The notes beneath the pieces were generated by a model. It had not been told where the DNA came from. It saw only the letters and a list, made by a program, of their open reading frames with translations, and ran no database searches. Source: Natronococcus amylolyticus DSM 10524 (GTDB lineage Archaea > Halobacteriota > Halobacteria > Halobacteriales > Natrialbaceae). From it: DNA of 64,000 nt. Shown piece by piece: positions 6,570 to 39,925 of this stretch (positions are counted from its first letter, which is position 1; each line of letters starts with the position of its first letter). The position numbers were made by a program, and so were the translations under genes. The stretch lies in assembly GCF_000337675.1 (NCBI RefSeq), contig NZ_AOIB01000015.1, positions 31,060 to 95,059 on the forward strand. Direction: 5' to 3'.

Positions 6570-6642
6570 GGGATCGTGGGTTAGCTTGGTATACTTCGGG
6601 CCTTGGGTGCCCGTGACCCCGGTTCAAATCCGGGCGATCCCA
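6570..6642 (+). tRNA. tRNA-Pro (anticodon TGG)
   Basis: Cloverleaf found by eye. The acceptor GGGATCG (6570-6576) pairs with CGATCCC (6635-6641), with discriminator A. The anticodon stem CGGGC/GCCCG encloses the seven-base loop CTTGGGT, giving anticodon TGG. The T-arm is CCCGG-TTCAAAT-CCGGG. No CCA is encoded and no intron is seen. Its 3' flank contains degenerate copies of its own T-arm/acceptor end, described separately. Confidence 0.95.
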
Positions 6643-6701
6643 TACTTCTGCTGCGAGCAACTCCGCGAGCAGCAGCCATCTGGCAGAGCGCGGATTTGAA
6701 T

Positions 6702-6785
6702 TATAGTAACAACTGAAACTGTTTGCACACCGATCGCACAGCCGTCGTGCGATCGGGTGCGCACTGACTTTCAGTGGCTACTATA
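6702..6785. repeat. 84-bp near-perfect palindromic element
   Basis: The ends are inverted: TATAGTA (6702-6708) with TACTATA (6779-6785), then ACTGAAA (6712-6718) with TTTCAGT (6769-6775). A perfect central 9-bp stem CGATCGCAC (6731-6739) / GTGCGATCG (6747-6755) has a 7-nt loop. The intervening arms are also similar. The size and full-length symmetry resemble a non-autonomous (MITE-like) element. No second copy was found in this window. Confidence 0.75.
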
Positions 6786-6787
6786 TA

Positions 6788-6838
6788 GAACGGCGAGCAT
6801 TGCGAGCCGTTCGCGTGGTTCAGAATCCGGGCACCCCC
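6788..6838. repeat. Hairpin plus degenerate tRNA-Pro 3'-end copy, unit 1
   Basis: A perfect 7-bp stem GAACGGC/GCCGTTC (6788-6794, 6806-6812) is followed by GCGTGGTTCA and then a copy of the tRNA-Pro T-loop, T-stem and acceptor strand (6817-6838; GGTTCAGAATCCGGGCACCC against GGTTCAAATCCGGGCGATCC in the gene). It has one inserted base and a few substitutions. Confidence 0.65.
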
Positions 6839-6898
6839 GTTATCACGAACAGAGTCGCGAGCAGCGAGTTCATCACAAGCGATCGGAGGCGTGGAAGA

Positions 6899-6953
6899 CC
6901 GGGGTTCTGCGCGAAGCGCAGGTTCTCGAGCGTAGTTCAGATTCGGACGATCC
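6899..6953. repeat. Hairpin plus degenerate tRNA-Pro 3'-end copy, unit 2
   Basis: CTGCGC-GAA-GCGCAG (6907-6921) sits in the context GGGGTTCTGCGC...GCGCAGGTTCTCG, followed by GCGTAGTTCA. Then comes a second copy of the tRNA-Pro 3' end (6934-6953, AGTTCAGATTCGGACGATCC). The hairpin and its flanks recur, in the tRNA's orientation, next to tRNA-Arg at 39786-39814. Confidence 0.7.
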
Positions 6954-7055
6954 CGATTCCGACACACACCAGGAACTCCTCAAGGCGTTCCCGTCGACGA
7001 ACGCATCCTGAAAAACGCGCGATCGAAGCGATCGAGCGCCGGCGGCCGAGTCGCG

Positions 7056-9011: not shown

Positions 9012-12000
9012 ATGGCGCAAGCGGGAAATTCTGAACTCGTCGACTCCTTCGAGCAGTTCTTCCGCAACTACTACGACAACGAAATCAAGCAGCTTGCGCA
9101 GCAGTACCCCAACGAGCAGCGATCGCTCCACGTCGACTGGCAGGATCTCTACCGGTACGATCCGAATCTCGCCGACGACTTCCTCGCCCAGCCCGAACAG
9201 CTCCAGCGCTACGCCGAGGAGGCCCTGCGGCTGTACGACCTGCCGATCGACGTCAGCCTCGGCCAGGCCCACGTTCGGATCCGGAACCTCCCCGAAACCG
9301 AGTCGCCCGAGATCCGGGAGATCCGCGCCCGCGATATGAACTCCCTCGTGCAGGCTCGAGGGATCGTCCGAAAGGCGACCGACGTTCGCCCGAAGATCGA
9401 GGAGGCCGCCTTCGAGTGTCAGCTCTGTGGAACCCTCACGCGAGTTCCACAGTCCAGTGGTGACTTCCAGGAACCCCACGAGTGCCAGGGCTGTGAACGC
9501 CAGGGCCCCTTCCGCGTGAACTTCGACCAGTCGGAGTTCGTCGACTCCCAGAAACTGCGCATTCAGGAGAGTCCCGAAGGCCTCAGGGGCGGCGAGACAC
9601 CCCAGTCGCTCGACGTCCACGTCGAGGACGATATCACCGGCGAGGTGACCCCCGGCGACCACGTCTCCACGACCGGCGTCCTCCGCCTCGAGCAACAGGG
9701 CGACGGCCAGGACAAGTCTCCGGTGTTCGACTTCTACATGGAGGGGATGTCCGTCGACATCGACGAGGAGCAGTTCGAGGACATGGACATCACCGAGGAG
9801 GACAAAGCGGAGATCGTCCGGCTCTCCTCGAGCGAGGACATCTACGAACAGATGGTCGGCTCGATTGCGCCCTCGATCTACGGCTACGAGCAGGAGAAGC
9901 TCGCGATGATCCTCCAGCTGTTCTCGGGCGTGACGAAGCAGTTGCCCGACGGCTCGAGGATCCGCGGCGACCTGCATATGCTACTAATCGGGGATCCGGG
10001 TACCGGGAAGTGTTTAAAAGGCGATTCGAAGGTCGCCCTCTCAGATGGACGAACGGTTCCGATCCGCGAACTCGTCGAAGCGAACCTCGAGGACCCGAAA
10101 CCGATCGACGACGGCTGGTACGACGAGATCGATCTCGAAGTGCCGTCGCTGCAGGACGACGGTTCGATCGCCCCACAGCAAGCGACGAAGGTCTGGAAGC
10201 GTGAGGCTCCCAATCGGATGTATCGGATTCGGACCTCGAGCGGGCGCAAGCTCGAGGTGACGCCGTCGCATCCGTTGTTCGTCGATGTTGCTGATGGCTA
10301 TCGAGCAGTCCGTGCCGACGAACTCTCAGTCGGAGATTCGATCGCTGTGACAGCAGGCAGTGCGAGCACGGTCGATCAGTCGACGGTAAACGAAGTACCC
10401 GTTCTCACTGACGGAGGAACAGTCGCGTCTACGAGCGCTGTAGCTGATCAGATCACTTCTATTGGAACGGTCGATCCCGACTACGACTGGGTGTACGACC
10501 TCGAAGTAGAGGGGACTCACAACTACGTTTCGAACGGAATTATCTCCCATAACTCCCAGATGCTGGGCTATATCCAGAACATCGCCCCTCGCTCCGTCTA
10601 CACCTCCGGGAAGGGGTCGTCATCGGCTGGCCTCTGTGTCACGGGGGACACACTGATCCATACCGAAGACGGGTTCCAACAGGCCGAGGACGTCGCCACT
10701 GCTCGGCTCCCCGATCCGGTCGACACCGAAACTGCAGTCGAAGACGAAATCGGCCTCTACACGTTCGATCGGGACTCGGGAGCCCTCGAGACGCGATCGA
10801 CGTCACACGTCTGGCGAATGCCGCCGAAGGAGTGTCGGCGGATAGAGACGGCGCGAGGAAAGGAACTCGAGGCGTCGCAGAACACGCCAGTGTTGGCCTG
10901 TGGCGACGACGGACTCGAATGGACACAAATATCGAACGTCGAAGCCGGCGACTACGTCGCGGTACCGAAGTATGACGAGATAGACCGCTCAACGCCGCGG
11001 ATCGAGGACTATCTCGAGTTTACGAACGAGAAGTTGAAACTCGCCGACGAGTCGATCGTACAGGTTCGTCGTCAGCTCTGTGAAGCGTTCGGAACGCTCC
11101 GTGACGCAGCGGCGGAACTCGATCTTTCGGAGGACTTCGTCTACGATACGATTCGGAACCGGCACATTCCCATAGCGAAGCTCGAGCGAGTTCTCGGTGC
11201 GATCGACCTCGAGTTGGACCAGCTCTCGATCGAACGCGCGATGCTTCGTCACGGAGATAGCGTCCGTGTTCCCGACGAGTTCGACGAGGACCTTTGTTAT
11301 TTGCTCGGTCTCGTCTTCGGGGACGGAGATATCAGGCTATCGCGCCGCGACGAAAACCGCGGTCTCGTTCGAATTTCTAACAGCGACGAAACGATTCTCG
11401 AGCGCGCGATCGAAATTTTCGATGACGCATTCGACAAGCGGCCCGAAATCGAGTATCAGGACGACCGCGTTCCGTGTATCCGCGTTCACAGCGCCACCGT
11501 CGCGCGACTGTTCTCCAACGCTGGGATGGAGACGCCAAAGGAGGAGCTGAAACTCGATCCCGGACTGACGACCGCCGAGCACGCCGATGCGTTCCTCTGC
11601 GGACTGATGGACGCCGATGGGTCTGTCTCGTCTCGAACGGACGGAGGTTCGAGCATCCACTTTTCGACAATCAGCCAGGAGTTCGCCGAACAGGTACAGC
11701 TGATGCTCGAAACCTACGGCGTTCGATCCCGCGTTCGCGAGCGCGACCGTCGCGGTGTGTCCGTCCTCGAGAACGGCTACGAGATCGAATCGAATTACGT
11801 CCAGTATCACCTGGAATGTTACGGTCGCAACATCGATCGGTACGCGGACGCGATCGGGTTCGGGTACCCGGCAAAACGAGCCGCACTCGAGGAAATCGTC
11901 GGAGACGCCACACGCCGGAGGGAGAAGATTCCGGTCGGAAACGCACTCGCAACCGTCGATGCTGCTGGCGGGGAATACTACATGAATCTCAACCGTGGCG

Positions 12001-13226
12001 ACAATCCCGGCCGCGGACGGACTCGACGGATGCTCGAAGAAGTCGATCTCGGAGACGCCGAACCGATCGTCGAGGAGGCAGTCGAGGCCGACTTGTGCTG
12101 GGACGAGGTCGTCGCTGCAATCGATACCGGCGAGAAAGAAGTGTTCGACCTCACTGTTCCGGAGACCCATAATTTCATCGCGAACGGCGTCGTCACCCAC
12201 AACACGGCTGCGGCGGTTCGCGACGACTTCGGCGACGGCCAGCAGTGGACTCTCGAGGCCGGCGCGCTCGTCCTCGCCGATCAGGGGATCGCGGCAGTCG
12301 ACGAGCTCGATAAAATGCGCAGCGAGGACCGCTCGGCCATGCACGAGGCCCTCGAGCAGCAGAAGATCTCGGTCTCGAAGGCCGGCATCAACGCCACACT
12401 CAAGTCCCGCTGTTCGCTACTGGGCGCCGCGAACCCCAAGTACGGCCGCTTCGACCAGTACGAGCCGATCGGCGAGCAGATCGACCTCGAGCCGGCCCTG
12501 ATCTCGCGGTTCGACCTCATCTTTACCGTTACGGACCAGCCCGACGAGGAGAAGGACAAGAACCTCGCCGAGCACATCCTCACGACCAACTACGCGGGGG
12601 AGCTGACGACCCAGCGCGAGGAGATGACCTCCCTCGAGGTCAGCGAGGAGGAGATCGAGGAGATGACCGAGCAGGTCGATCCCGTCATCGACGCCGAACT
12701 CCTCCGGAAGTACATCGCCTACGCGAAGCAGAACTGCCACCCGCGAATGACCGAGGAGGCCCGAAAGACGATCCGTGATTTCTACGTCGACCTGCGCGCG
12801 AAGGGAACCGACGAGGACGCCCCCGTTCCCGTCACGGCTCGAAAGCTCGAGGCGCTCGTTCGCCTCTCGGAGGCAAGCGCCCGGGTGCGCCTCTCCGATA
12901 CGGTCGAGCAACGAGACGCCGAGCAGGTCGTCGAGATCGTTCGCTCGTGTCTGCAGGACATCGGCGTCGATCCCGAAACGGGAGAGTTCGACGCCGACAT
13001 CGTCGAGGCCGGCACCTCGAAGTCCCAGCGCGACCGGATCAAGAACATCAAGGGACTGATCAGCGACATCGAGGAGGAGTACGACGAGGGTGCGCCGGTC
13101 GACATCGTTCTCGAGCGCGCCGACGAGATCGGCCTGGACGAGTCGAAGGCCGAACACGAGATCGACAAGCTCAAACAGAAGGGCGAGGTCTACGAGCCGA
13201 GCACCGATACGCTTCGAACGACGTAG
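9012..13226 (+). CDS. mcm: Replicative DNA helicase MCM, interrupted by two inteins
   Basis: A 1404-residue precursor; removing residues 334-514 and 542-1064 leaves a 700-residue MCM, the normal haloarchaeal length. The N-domain carries a zinc finger beginning at Cys136 (CQLC ... CQGC). The AAA+ core has the Walker A motif GDPGTGK|S split by intein 1, Walker B AAVDELDKM near 1094-1102 and the arginine finger in ISRFD. The C-terminus is a winged-helix region. MCM unwinds DNA ahead of the fork as a hexamer. Because intein 1 sits in the P-loop, splicing is needed for ATPase activity. The gene is convergent with tfb, 12 nt apart. Confidence 0.97.
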   Translation: MAQAGNSELVDSFEQFFRNYYDNEIKQLAQQYPNEQRSLHVDWQDLYRYDPNLADDFLAQPEQLQRYAEEALRLYDLPIDVSLGQAHVRIRNLPETESPEIREIRARDMNSLVQARGIVRKATDVRPKIEEAAFECQLCGTLTRVPQSSGDFQEPHECQGCERQGPFRVNFDQSEFVDSQKLRIQESPEGLRGGETPQSLDVHVEDDITGEVTPGDHVSTTGVLRLEQQGDGQDKSPVFDFYMEGMSVDIDEEQFEDMDITEEDKAEIVRLSSSEDIYEQMVGSIAPSIYGYEQEKLAMILQLFSGVTKQLPDGSRIRGDLHMLLIGDPGTGKCLKGDSKVALSDGRTVPIRELVEANLEDPKPIDDGWYDEIDLEVPSLQDDGSIAPQQATKVWKREAPNRMYRIRTSSGRKLEVTPSHPLFVDVADGYRAVRADELSVGDSIAVTAGSASTVDQSTVNEVPVLTDGGTVASTSAVADQITSIGTVDPDYDWVYDLEVEGTHNYVSNGIISHNSQMLGYIQNIAPRSVYTSGKGSSSAGLCVTGDTLIHTEDGFQQAEDVATARLPDPVDTETAVEDEIGLYTFDRDSGALETRSTSHVWRMPPKECRRIETARGKELEASQNTPVLACGDDGLEWTQISNVEAGDYVAVPKYDEIDRSTPRIEDYLEFTNEKLKLADESIVQVRRQLCEAFGTLRDAAAELDLSEDFVYDTIRNRHIPIAKLERVLGAIDLELDQLSIERAMLRHGDSVRVPDEFDEDLCYLLGLVFGDGDIRLSRRDENRGLVRISNSDETILERAIEIFDDAFDKRPEIEYQDDRVPCIRVHSATVARLFSNAGMETPKEELKLDPGLTTAEHADAFLCGLMDADGSVSSRTDGGSSIHFSTISQEFAEQVQLMLETYGVRSRVRERDRRGVSVLENGYEIESNYVQYHLECYGRNIDRYADAIGFGYPAKRAALEEIVGDATRRREKIPVGNALATVDAAGGEYYMNLNRGDNPGRGRTRRMLEEVDLGDAEPIVEEAVEADLCWDEVVAAIDTGEKEVFDLTVPETHNFIANGVVTHNTAAAVRDDFGDGQQWTLEAGALVLADQGIAAVDELDKMRSEDRSAMHEALEQQKISVSKAGINATLKSRCSLLGAANPKYGRFDQYEPIGEQIDLEPALISRFDLIFTVTDQPDEEKDKNLAEHILTTNYAGELTTQREEMTSLEVSEEEIEEMTEQVDPVIDAELLRKYIAYAKQNCHPRMTEEARKTIRDFYVDLRAKGTDEDAPVPVTARKLEALVRLSEASARVRLSDTVEQRDAEQVVEIVRSCLQDIGVDPETGEFDADIVEAGTSKSQRDRIKNIKGLISDIEEEYDEGAPVDIVLERADEIGLDESKAEHEIDKLKQKGEVYEPSTDTLRTT
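10011..10553 (+). other. MCM intein 1 (mini-intein in the Walker A motif)
   Basis: 181 residues (334-514), inserted after GDPGTGK and before SQMLGY. The first residue is Cys (CLKGDSKVALSDGR, block A). Block B is EVTPSHPLF with the expected His. Block F/G is VYDLEVEGTHNYVSNGIISHN, ending His-Asn, with +1 Ser. There is no LAGLIDADG or other endonuclease domain, so this is a splicing-only mini-intein. Confidence 0.95.
10635..12203 (+). other. MCM intein 2 with LAGLIDADG homing endonuclease
   Basis: 523 residues (542-1064), inserted between GSSSAGL and TAAAV, only 27 extein residues after intein 1. It starts CVTGDTLIHTEDG and ends HNFIANGVVTHN, with +1 Thr. An endonuclease domain carries two dodecapeptide-type motifs, LLGLVFGDGD and LCGLMDADGS, preceded by a helical stretch that resembles a DNA-binding helix-turn-helix (GTLRDAAAELDLSEDFVYD). 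The block-B region reads ELEASQNTPVLAC, where the usual His is replaced. Confidence 0.95.
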
Positions 13227-39314: not shown

Positions 39315-39850
39315 ACCCGTGACTGCGACTCGAGCATGTTGTATCGGCTGCCTGCATAGGCGACCGACCCGCATCAGTCCGAGTAAGCGAGTCCCACGAA
39401 TCGACCGGACTACCCGCAGCGATCACGACGGGAGCCGAGCCCGGGCAGTCGTCCGGCGTTCGCGCAGGTAGCATACGGTTATTTCGGTCCGAGAAACGAA
39501 AGAGCCGGACCATAGAGACGTCAGTACCGATCAGTGTCTCGAGAGGCCAGCGATCGGATAGCCTATACAGTTAGGTTTCGTGTCTGGTTTATCCGGTTAT
39601 CAAATCGTTCGTGATGATACAACTGGTGCTACTGAGCGGTTGCGGACACGCCGCAGGACGCTACGACCCCTGCACGATCCAATCGGACGTTGCGATTGGC
39701 GGGCTTCGATCCTGGCGGTTCGTGATGCACTCCTCGTGTTCGCTCGTCGCAGAATTAGCGGGCACGATGGGATTTGAACCACGCCCGAGAACCTGCGCGA
39801 GCGCAGAACCTCGGTCTCAATTAAATCCCACGTCCGGTTCGCTCACTGTA
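39315..39850. other. Non-coding region before tRNA-Arg, with a tRNA 3'-end copy
   Basis: 536 nt. The first part carries the promoter of the C45 gene and no clear gene. The last 92 nt hold the repeat module at 39759-39829. An open frame at 39611-39889 ends in a translated tRNA sequence and is discounted. Confidence 0.6.
39759..39829 (-). repeat. Hairpin module carrying a copy of the tRNA-Arg 3' end
   Basis: Read on the minus strand: an inverted partial T-arm (39821-39832), then the hairpin CCGAG/CTCGG with inner stem CTGCGC-GA-GCGCAG (39785-39814), then GGCGTGG leading into a 22-nt exact copy of the tRNA-Arg 3' end (39759-39780 against 39851-39872). An outer stem GGGATTT/AAATCCC (39769-39775, 39823-39829) encloses everything. 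Confidence 0.8.
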
Positions 39851-39925
39851 CGGGCACGATGGGATTTGAACCCACGACCGTCGGATTAGAAGTCCGACGC
39901 TCTTTCCGGACTGAGCTACGTGCCC
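39851..39925 (-). tRNA. tRNA-Arg (anticodon TCT)
   Basis: The acceptor GGGCACG/CGTGCCC closes the cloverleaf. The D-arm contains AGCTCAGTCCGGAAAGAGC. The anticodon stem GTCGG/CCGAC encloses CTTCTAA-type loop bases with anticodon TCT. The T-arm is GTGGG-TTCAAAT-CCCAT. There is no intron and no encoded CCA; the discriminator is G. Confidence 0.95.

Follow-up and report, generated by a model that had tools for sequence, protein, structure and literature searches.

Hairpin units with copies of tRNA 3' ends behind the tRNA genes of haloarchaea

Two occupied tRNA genes in the window

The window, a stretch of 64,000 nucleotides from Natronococcus amylolyticus DSM 10524, contains two tRNA genes, tRNA-Pro(TGG) and tRNA-Arg(TCT), each of which is followed by hairpins and by copies of its own 3' end (Table 1). 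The segment copied behind tRNA-Pro(TGG) comprises nt 53-73 of the tRNA. Two direct copies of this segment had been predicted from the letters of the DNA, and both are present, at 6817-6839 (D1) and 6935-6955 (D2), the second lying 1-2 bases away from where it had been placed. An inverted partial copy (I) had been claimed at 6688-6700, and GCGCGGATTTGAA indeed agrees with tRNA-Pro at 12 of 13 positions. In the shuffle check, D1 and D2 each reached a local alignment score of 25, and 1000 dinucleotide-shuffled versions of this stretch gave 22 at most. The matching layout claimed for the tRNA-Arg locus, built from the sequence of that tRNA, was confirmed by a perfect 22-nt copy at 39759-39780.

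Table 1. Positions of the tRNA genes, repeat units and inserted element in the window
Feature	Position	Strand	Sequence	Remarks
tRNA-Pro(TGG), target gene	6570..6642	+		ARAGORN; Rfam tRNA, 57 bits
Unit 1, hairpin 1	6648..6675	+	CTGCTGC-GAGCA..CGCGA-GCAGCAG type	conserved tandem G.A; type recurs at other tRNAs of the genome and is also found in Natronococcus sp. A-GB1
Inverted partial copy I of the T arm	6688..6701	+	GCGCGGATTTGAAT	12/13 to the tRNA reverse complement; counterpart in nearly all units
84-bp inverted-repeat MITE	6702..6785	.	ends TATAGTARCMACTGAA	inserted between I and hairpin 2; outside the unit proper
Unit 1, hairpin 2	6788..6812	+	GAACGGCGAGCATTGCGAGCCGTTC	links AGA/GCG; module recurs at tRNA-Arg(TCG), Arg(CCG) and Glu(TTC) in the genome
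Direct copy D1 of the tRNA 3' end	6817..6839	+	GGTTCAGAATCCGGGCACCCCCG	alignment with A-GB1
Hairpin 1 of the next unit, decayed	6845..6877	+		alignment with A-GB1; weak
Unit 2, hairpin 2, class A	6899..6929	+	CGGGGTTCTGCGC..GCGCAGGTTCTCG	class recurs at tRNA-Arg(TCT), Leu(TAA) and Ser(TGA) in the genome and in other genera
Direct copy D2 of the tRNA 3' end	6935..6955	+	GTTCAGATTCGGACGATCCCG	17/21; score above 1000 shuffles
tRNA-Arg(TCT)	39851..39925	-		ARAGORN; Rfam tRNA
Inverted copy I of tRNA-Arg	39817..39831	-	GTGGGATTTAATTGA	pairs with D in the predicted fold
Hairpin 2, class A	39784..39814	-	CCGAGGTTCTGCGC..GCGCAGGTTCTCGG	a different hairpin in its place in A-GB1 and N. jeotgali
Direct copy D	39759..39780	-		22/22 to the tRNA-Arg 3' end

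D1 carries one inserted base in the T loop, and its 3' part is chimeric. Aligned with Natronococcus sp. A-GB1 (G383), its 5' half equals the first direct copy of that genome, its 3' end and the bases that follow equal the second, and the unit that lies between the two is absent. The most fitting reading of this "degenerate" copy is therefore that it marks the junction of a deletion. It is probably the product of recombination between two direct copies that removed one unit.

The palindromes at the locus turned out to be of two kinds. The small hairpins at 6648-6675, 6788-6812 and 6899-6929 belong to the units, as had been supposed, whereas the large palindrome at 6702-6785 does not. This imperfect palindrome of 84 bp has about 13 further copies in the genome, mostly with 89-98% identity, and many copies in other genomes of the family (83-99% identity); among the genomes compared, it occupies the tRNA-Pro(TGG) site only in N. 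amylolyticus and A-GB1. It behaves as a MITE in its own right, is unrelated to the tRNA units and has landed within unit 1. Elsewhere in the window, an ORF for an MCM helicase (9012-13226, 1404 aa) apparently holds two inteins, judged by eye (CLKGDSKV...VSNGIISHN; CVTGDTLI...FIANGVVTHN).

Anatomy, structure and occurrence of the units

The units are constant in layout and variable in sequence, the tRNA being followed by hairpin 1, I, hairpin 2 and D in this order. Hairpin 1 begins right at the tRNA end, often with a run of T, and has the form stem-GA-RCA..CGY-GA-stem with a conserved tandem G.A. After a spacer comes I, an inverted copy of the T loop and of the 3' strand of the T stem (for instance GGGATTTGAAC), and then hairpin 2, flanked by the links NNAGA on its 5' side and GCGTR on its 3' side. 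D is a direct copy of 21 nt that starts in the T loop with GTTCAAAT or GTTCGAAT, runs from G53 to nt 73 and may be followed by a further hairpin 1. Since D duplicates nt 53-73, the tRNA stays whole. The units are non-coding and measure about 75-170 bp.

Both kinds of copy are specific to the adjacent tRNA. D agrees with its own tRNA at 19.6 of 21 positions versus 12.5 for other tRNAs, and I agrees with the T-stem strand of its own tRNA at 4.3 of 6 positions versus 3.0. Watson-Crick pairing of I amounts to 1134 of 1364 positions when it is set against the tRNA and to 1060 when it is set against the neighbouring decayed D. I thus resembles a copy made from the tRNA end and altered by later drift, and not a partner whose pairing with D is maintained.

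An intact unit is predicted to fold into hairpin 1 and one long hairpin, in which I pairs with D and hairpin 2 is stacked on top. Two intact units had fold z-scores of -5 to -6.5, whether treated as DNA or as RNA, and the Arg unit of the window had -2.8 to -3.4. The basal stems of hairpin 2 contain 251 Watson-Crick pairs out of 324 (54 distinct arm pairs), against a mean of 130 and a maximum of 160 when the arms are re-dealt, indicating that the stem sequence changes while pairing is kept. In the stems of hairpin 1, read on the tRNA-sense strand, 39 G-T pairs stand against 16 A-C mismatches; an A-C excess in a wider mismatch count comes mostly from one conserved loop-closing pair. This ratio fits folding of the sense strand and cannot separate RNA from single-stranded DNA, so no strong claim for either is made. 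Rfam holds no family for the units, apart from the tRNA itself.

A recurring unit of hairpins and tRNA 3' end had been expected at other tRNAs of this genome and its relatives, and the flanks bear this out. All 45 tRNA flanks of the N. amylolyticus genome (4.4 Mb) were extracted, and Natronococcus jeotgali DSM 18795 (G203), N. pandeyae LS1_42 (G392) and A-GB1 are relatives in the same genus; statements on the whole genome are based on these 45 loci together with the 770 kb around them. When a copy was required to match nt 53-73 of its own tRNA at 17 or more of 21 positions, 30-330 nt downstream, it was found at 28/45 tRNAs in N. amylolyticus, 23/47 in N. jeotgali (whose 47 include two or three doubtful calls) and 22/44 in A-GB1, and a slightly looser rule raised the last two counts to 26/47 and 27/44. 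Hence about 60% of the tRNA genes in three Natronococcus genomes carry units, and about 16 tRNAs per genome are free of them. At equal distance upstream, the counts for N. amylolyticus, N. jeotgali and A-GB1 were 2/44, 1/45 and 1/43, and with the ends of other tRNAs they were 2/664, 7/738 and 0/620. These two controls, together with the shuffles, exclude a chance origin of the copies. Tandem duplication of whole tRNA genes, considered as another source, occurs at Asp(GTC), Thr(GGT) and Gly(GCC) and leaves the shared hairpins unexplained.

Beyond the genus, an exact pattern, GATTTGAANNAGAN{20,50}GTTCAAATC, so strict that it catches between about one unit in 5 and one in 9 in the three fully examined genomes, gave matches in 192 of the 392 genomes sampled from the order, and these come from at least 65 of the 95 genera. 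As a control, the pattern was also reversed, and in this form it matched 0/392 genomes. Counted by hand in named genomes, 63 of the 66 haloarchaeal loci among the first 80 matches have a tRNA within about 400 nt on the correct strand, D mostly agreeing with this tRNA at 18-21 of 21 positions, and a further batch was alike. The named genera with units include Haloarcula, Halorubrum, Natrinema, Natrialba, Halorhabdus, Halosimplex, Haladaptatus, Halorussus and Halobellus. Units that look reversed (CCAGAGGAAGACGGTC...) belong to tRNAs on the opposite strand. Outside the haloarchaea, the pattern matches listed have no tRNA or no hairpin and look like chance. No description of the units was found in open full texts, subscription journals lying outside this search, and this real and widespread family is apparently undescribed.

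Several loci depart from the common form. Behind tRNA-Arg(CCT) and Arg(GCG) (L023, L068) lies a second type of tail repeat, with another hairpin body and a copy of about 14 nt, of the TCCCGCCACGCCCG type, that extends from the 3' strand of the T stem to the end. Longer arrays were seen at tRNA-Ala(GGC) of Halorientalis pallida and of a Halobacteriales MAG (L225, L256), in which the tRNA-Ala end TGGACTCGCGGGG alternates with a hairpin cassette, GGTCCCGCGA..GTGGGACC, besides the standard unit. Halomicrobium katesii and Halorhabdus amylolytica (L299, L301) contain structures that resemble units in 8-kb stretches where no tRNA gene was detected; these are possible orphans or remnants of lost tRNAs. 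At L014 (753-852, minus strand), haloarchaeal DNA strongly matched the Rfam family of L4-Archaeoglobi ribosomal protein leaders, with 72.8 bits.

Turnover and exchange between tRNA genes

Orthologous tRNAs had been expected to differ in the presence of units if these are mobile, and such differences occur between Natronococcus species at loci with matching flanks. At Thr(TGT) and Pro(GGG), a unit is present in N. amylolyticus and N. jeotgali and absent in A-GB1; at Ile(GAT), it is present in A-GB1 and absent in N. amylolyticus; at Lys(TTT), it is present in A-GB1 and N. jeotgali and absent in N. amylolyticus. Parsimony favours loss over gain at Pro(GGG), Thr(TGT) and Lys(TTT). At Val(TAC), A-GB1 has an extra unit between the tRNA and the unit that it has in common with N. 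amylolyticus. Similarly, at Ser(CGA) and Lys(CTT) the genomes have the tRNA-distal units in common and differ in the proximal ones, which are lineage-specific, and at Ile(GAT) a decayed old unit is common, with a fresher one ahead of it in A-GB1 and in genomes G393 and G189.

This turnover bears on the view, offered by the original prediction as its second alternative, that the units are structured 3' trailers with a function for the host, whose hairpins and imitation of the tRNA end would work at the level of the transcript, for instance by aiding 3' processing, by serving as a decoy or by terminating transcription. Strong folding of the sense strand would suit such a role, as would the predominance of G-T over A-C in hairpin 1 and the start of this hairpin directly at the tRNA end, often with a T run. 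Nevertheless, within one genus orthologous tRNA genes have or lack the unit instead of retaining it, the unit-free tRNAs of each genome do without one, I does not co-vary with changes in D and no Rfam family matches. Disfavoured by the fast turnover, functional trailers are improbable. If the units were host-functional after all, structured RNAs would accompany archaeal tRNA genes very frequently.

The arrays also have a direction. Of 29 arrays, 21 have a proximal D that is closer to the tRNA sequence than the distal one, 6 show no difference and 2 have the worse copy next to the tRNA (p = 7e-5). Such a polarity agrees with the addition of new units beside the tRNA, and it would look no different if the tRNA served as template for the repair of its nearest copy.

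Hairpin 2 modules are common to different tRNAs and species. At Arg(TCT), Glu(TTC), Ser(TGA), Leu(TAG) and Val(GAC), the class of hairpin 2 differs between close relatives, with hairpin 1, I or the flank unchanged. When look-alike pairs were defined by at least 88% identity over at least 80% of the length, 317 of 401 hairpin 2 pairs joined different tRNAs, and 400 of the 401 were in one orientation; for hairpin 1, only 7 of 73 pairs joined different tRNAs. Hairpin 2 therefore travels between tRNAs, and hairpin 1 stays with its own.

The units could also arise with no dedicated element. Replication forks stall at tRNA genes, where DNA synthesis that folds back or switches template at the 3' end of the tRNA would make inverted and direct copies (in the order D-loop-I-loop-D), the arms being kept perfect by templated palindrome correction and the modules being spread by gene conversion via the shared TTCAAAT. 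Template switching directly explains why both I and D match their own tRNA, and it agrees with the better fit of I to the tRNA than to the decayed D and with an exchange of modules that leaves hairpin 1, I and D in place. A random process, however, is not expected to give the conserved order, the links (NNAGA ... GCGTR), the fixed orientation and the classes of hairpin 2 that are recognisable across many genera. Moreover, the units are confined to haloarchaea among the matches listed, though tRNA genes are universal. We regard template switching as unlikely.

Proposed mobile cassettes and their likeness to known systems

The best explanation, to which we give about an even chance, is that the units are an undescribed family of small, non-coding and non-autonomous DNA cassettes, found solely at the 3' ends of haloarchaeal tRNA genes. 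The idea that a family of elements copies the 3' ends of tRNAs, or targets them, is supported by the recurrence of the unit, by its presence or absence with matching flanks and by its occurrence throughout the haloarchaea. A new cassette would join at the tRNA itself and leave the tRNA 3' end on both sides, older cassettes would be shifted outwards and then decay, and units would also be lost by recombination between direct copies. The segment from I through hairpin 2 to D may form a long imperfect hairpin on the tRNA-sense strand that is read as single-stranded DNA by a structure-reading recombinase, as attC is by integron integrases; the fixed orientation, the paired but variable hairpins and the exchange of the segment from T loop to acceptor point to an enzyme that reads folded single strands. 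A tyrosine recombinase appears to be the most likely class, because the exchanged segment, from T loop to acceptor, is the part of a tRNA gene on which these enzymes act.

The life cycle, in which nt 53-73 are duplicated on gain and units are lost through D-D recombination, is better constrained by the data than the chemistry is. For the tRNA-matched inverted copy, templated fold-back synthesis during insertion is the simplest guess. It is favoured by I being a drifting copy of the tRNA end, which also leaves room for the rival with no dedicated enzyme. Several points count against the cassette reading. Loss by D-D recombination explains some of the clean presence/absence pairs as well as gain does, ordinary site-specific recombination would not lead one to expect an inverted copy specific to the tRNA, no autonomous copy was present in 770 kb around 40 tRNA loci, and free haloviruses with SNJ2-type integrases have no unit of this kind at attP.

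If the cassettes are mobile, one system would serve many different tRNA genes, unlike ordinary integrases, which are tied to one att sequence each. As the arrays appear to keep their age order, the units would be a readable record of turnover. They may also act as recombination hot spots that shape the neighbourhoods of tRNA genes, where viruses and plasmids integrate as well. A more far-reaching proposal, made tentatively and with more doubt than confidence, is a haloarchaeal recombination system unlike any described, which would use tRNA genes as docking sites for gene-less hairpin cassettes, recognise folded single-stranded DNA and, with every cassette, write matched inverted and direct copies of the tRNA end, which would open nearly every tRNA of the cell to this one system.

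A close parallel to mobile cassettes of this kind is the integron with its attC sites. Both have tandem cassettes in fixed orientation, the youngest beside the primary site, and attC likewise varies in sequence and is conserved as an imperfect single-strand hairpin with unpaired bases. Compensatory pairing, orientation and predicted folds give the units a structure-conserved hairpin of this type, which may serve as the recombination site. Unlike integron cassettes, the units have no ORF cargo, their primary site is a tRNA gene, their arms match that tRNA, and D begins as described above and not with the core site GTTRRRY. To our knowledge, no integron is known in haloarchaea.

Integration of the Cas1 type, by a casposase or in the manner of CRISPR adaptation, would treat the tRNA as the leader and the 21 nt at its end as the repeat. 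CRISPR arrays and casposons resemble the units in the duplication of the target end and in growth beside the leader, and casposons can integrate at tRNA 3' ends too. Consistent with this scheme, the units duplicate an end sequence beside the leader-like tRNA, and older units lie distally, the proximal copy being fresher in 21 of 23 informative arrays; repair from the tRNA would look alike. On the other hand, 12 of the 22 genomes with units lack a Cas1 family gene (PF01867), and 11 of these 12 are more than 90% complete with at most 5% contamination, which largely refutes Cas1 as the required present-day agent. Moreover, the anatomy of the units is constant, and what is inserted is a structured unit with a tRNA-specific inverted copy and not free spacer DNA. 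Integration of this type is hardly credible.

The rtT repeats behind tyrT of Escherichia coli are repeated units that contain the last ~19 nt of that tRNA. They are alike in being repeats behind a tRNA gene with the end of this very tRNA, and unlike in being a 178-bp unit at one single locus; we know of no inverted copy or hairpin exchange in them. Haloarchaeal MITEs, PATEs and other small mobile repeats, as described in Haloquadratum, are likewise short, non-coding and palindromic and lack a transposase, but their ends or palindromes are constant within a family and they lie scattered, whereas the units have tRNA-specific ends and a 21-nt duplication and lie at tRNAs (PMC3119063). PATEs make no target duplication (PMC3119063). 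In contrast to the family-constant terminal inverted repeats, fixed target duplication and similar bodies of a MITE, the bodies of the units are alike in anatomy only; presence and absence at one site between relatives, also typical of MITEs, was seen at four tRNAs with matching flanks. For a derivation from REP/BIME or from IS200/IS605 as in PATEs, a Y1 transposase would be expected. PF01797 is absent from 4 of the 22 unit-bearing genomes, so a Y1 transposase is not the required present agent, and a past role is possible.

The last rival takes each D for an attR left by integration of a virus or plasmid into a tRNA 3' end and by later loss of the element. tRNA 3' ends are standard sites of integration in archaea (PMC8371274), tRNA-end integration being also described in PMC7911831, and a decayed element with an integrase fragment lies between units behind tRNA-Val(CAC). 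Against such scars stands, above all, the one fixed anatomy of the units, which is unlike random remnants. The SNJ2-type integrases of haloarchaeal pleolipoviruses use att cores of 12-15 nt of the acceptor end, compared with 21 nt in the units, and their elements are 12-25 kb long, carry genes and have neither hairpins nor an inverted T arm at attP. No unit was present at attP of SNJ2, Humcor2, Halfgib1 and Harhisp1 (12-15 nt each), and the motif was absent from HHPV4 and LSV-48N. Phage and plasmid records gave no match in a weak test with one unit only, and the pattern matches in IMG/VR, considered as candidates for units on viruses, are due to chance. Decayed att sites of known integrases, the first alternative of the original prediction, thus fail on both copy length and structure, and scars of this kind are quite improbable.

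Pairs of D at long range were also considered as marks of a large autonomous element. The single case is the decayed remnant of 1.6 kb at Val(CAC). At this locus (L365, 17700-20000, on contig C31 of the N. amylolyticus genome), a fragment of a tyrosine recombinase lies in a decayed integrated element between two tail units. The fragment has no Pfam match and groups by tblastn with the integrases of SNJ2, HHPV4, Humcor2 and others. At its distal end, the element fuses sequence of the anticodon arm of tRNA-Val to a segment of I, hairpin 2 and D.
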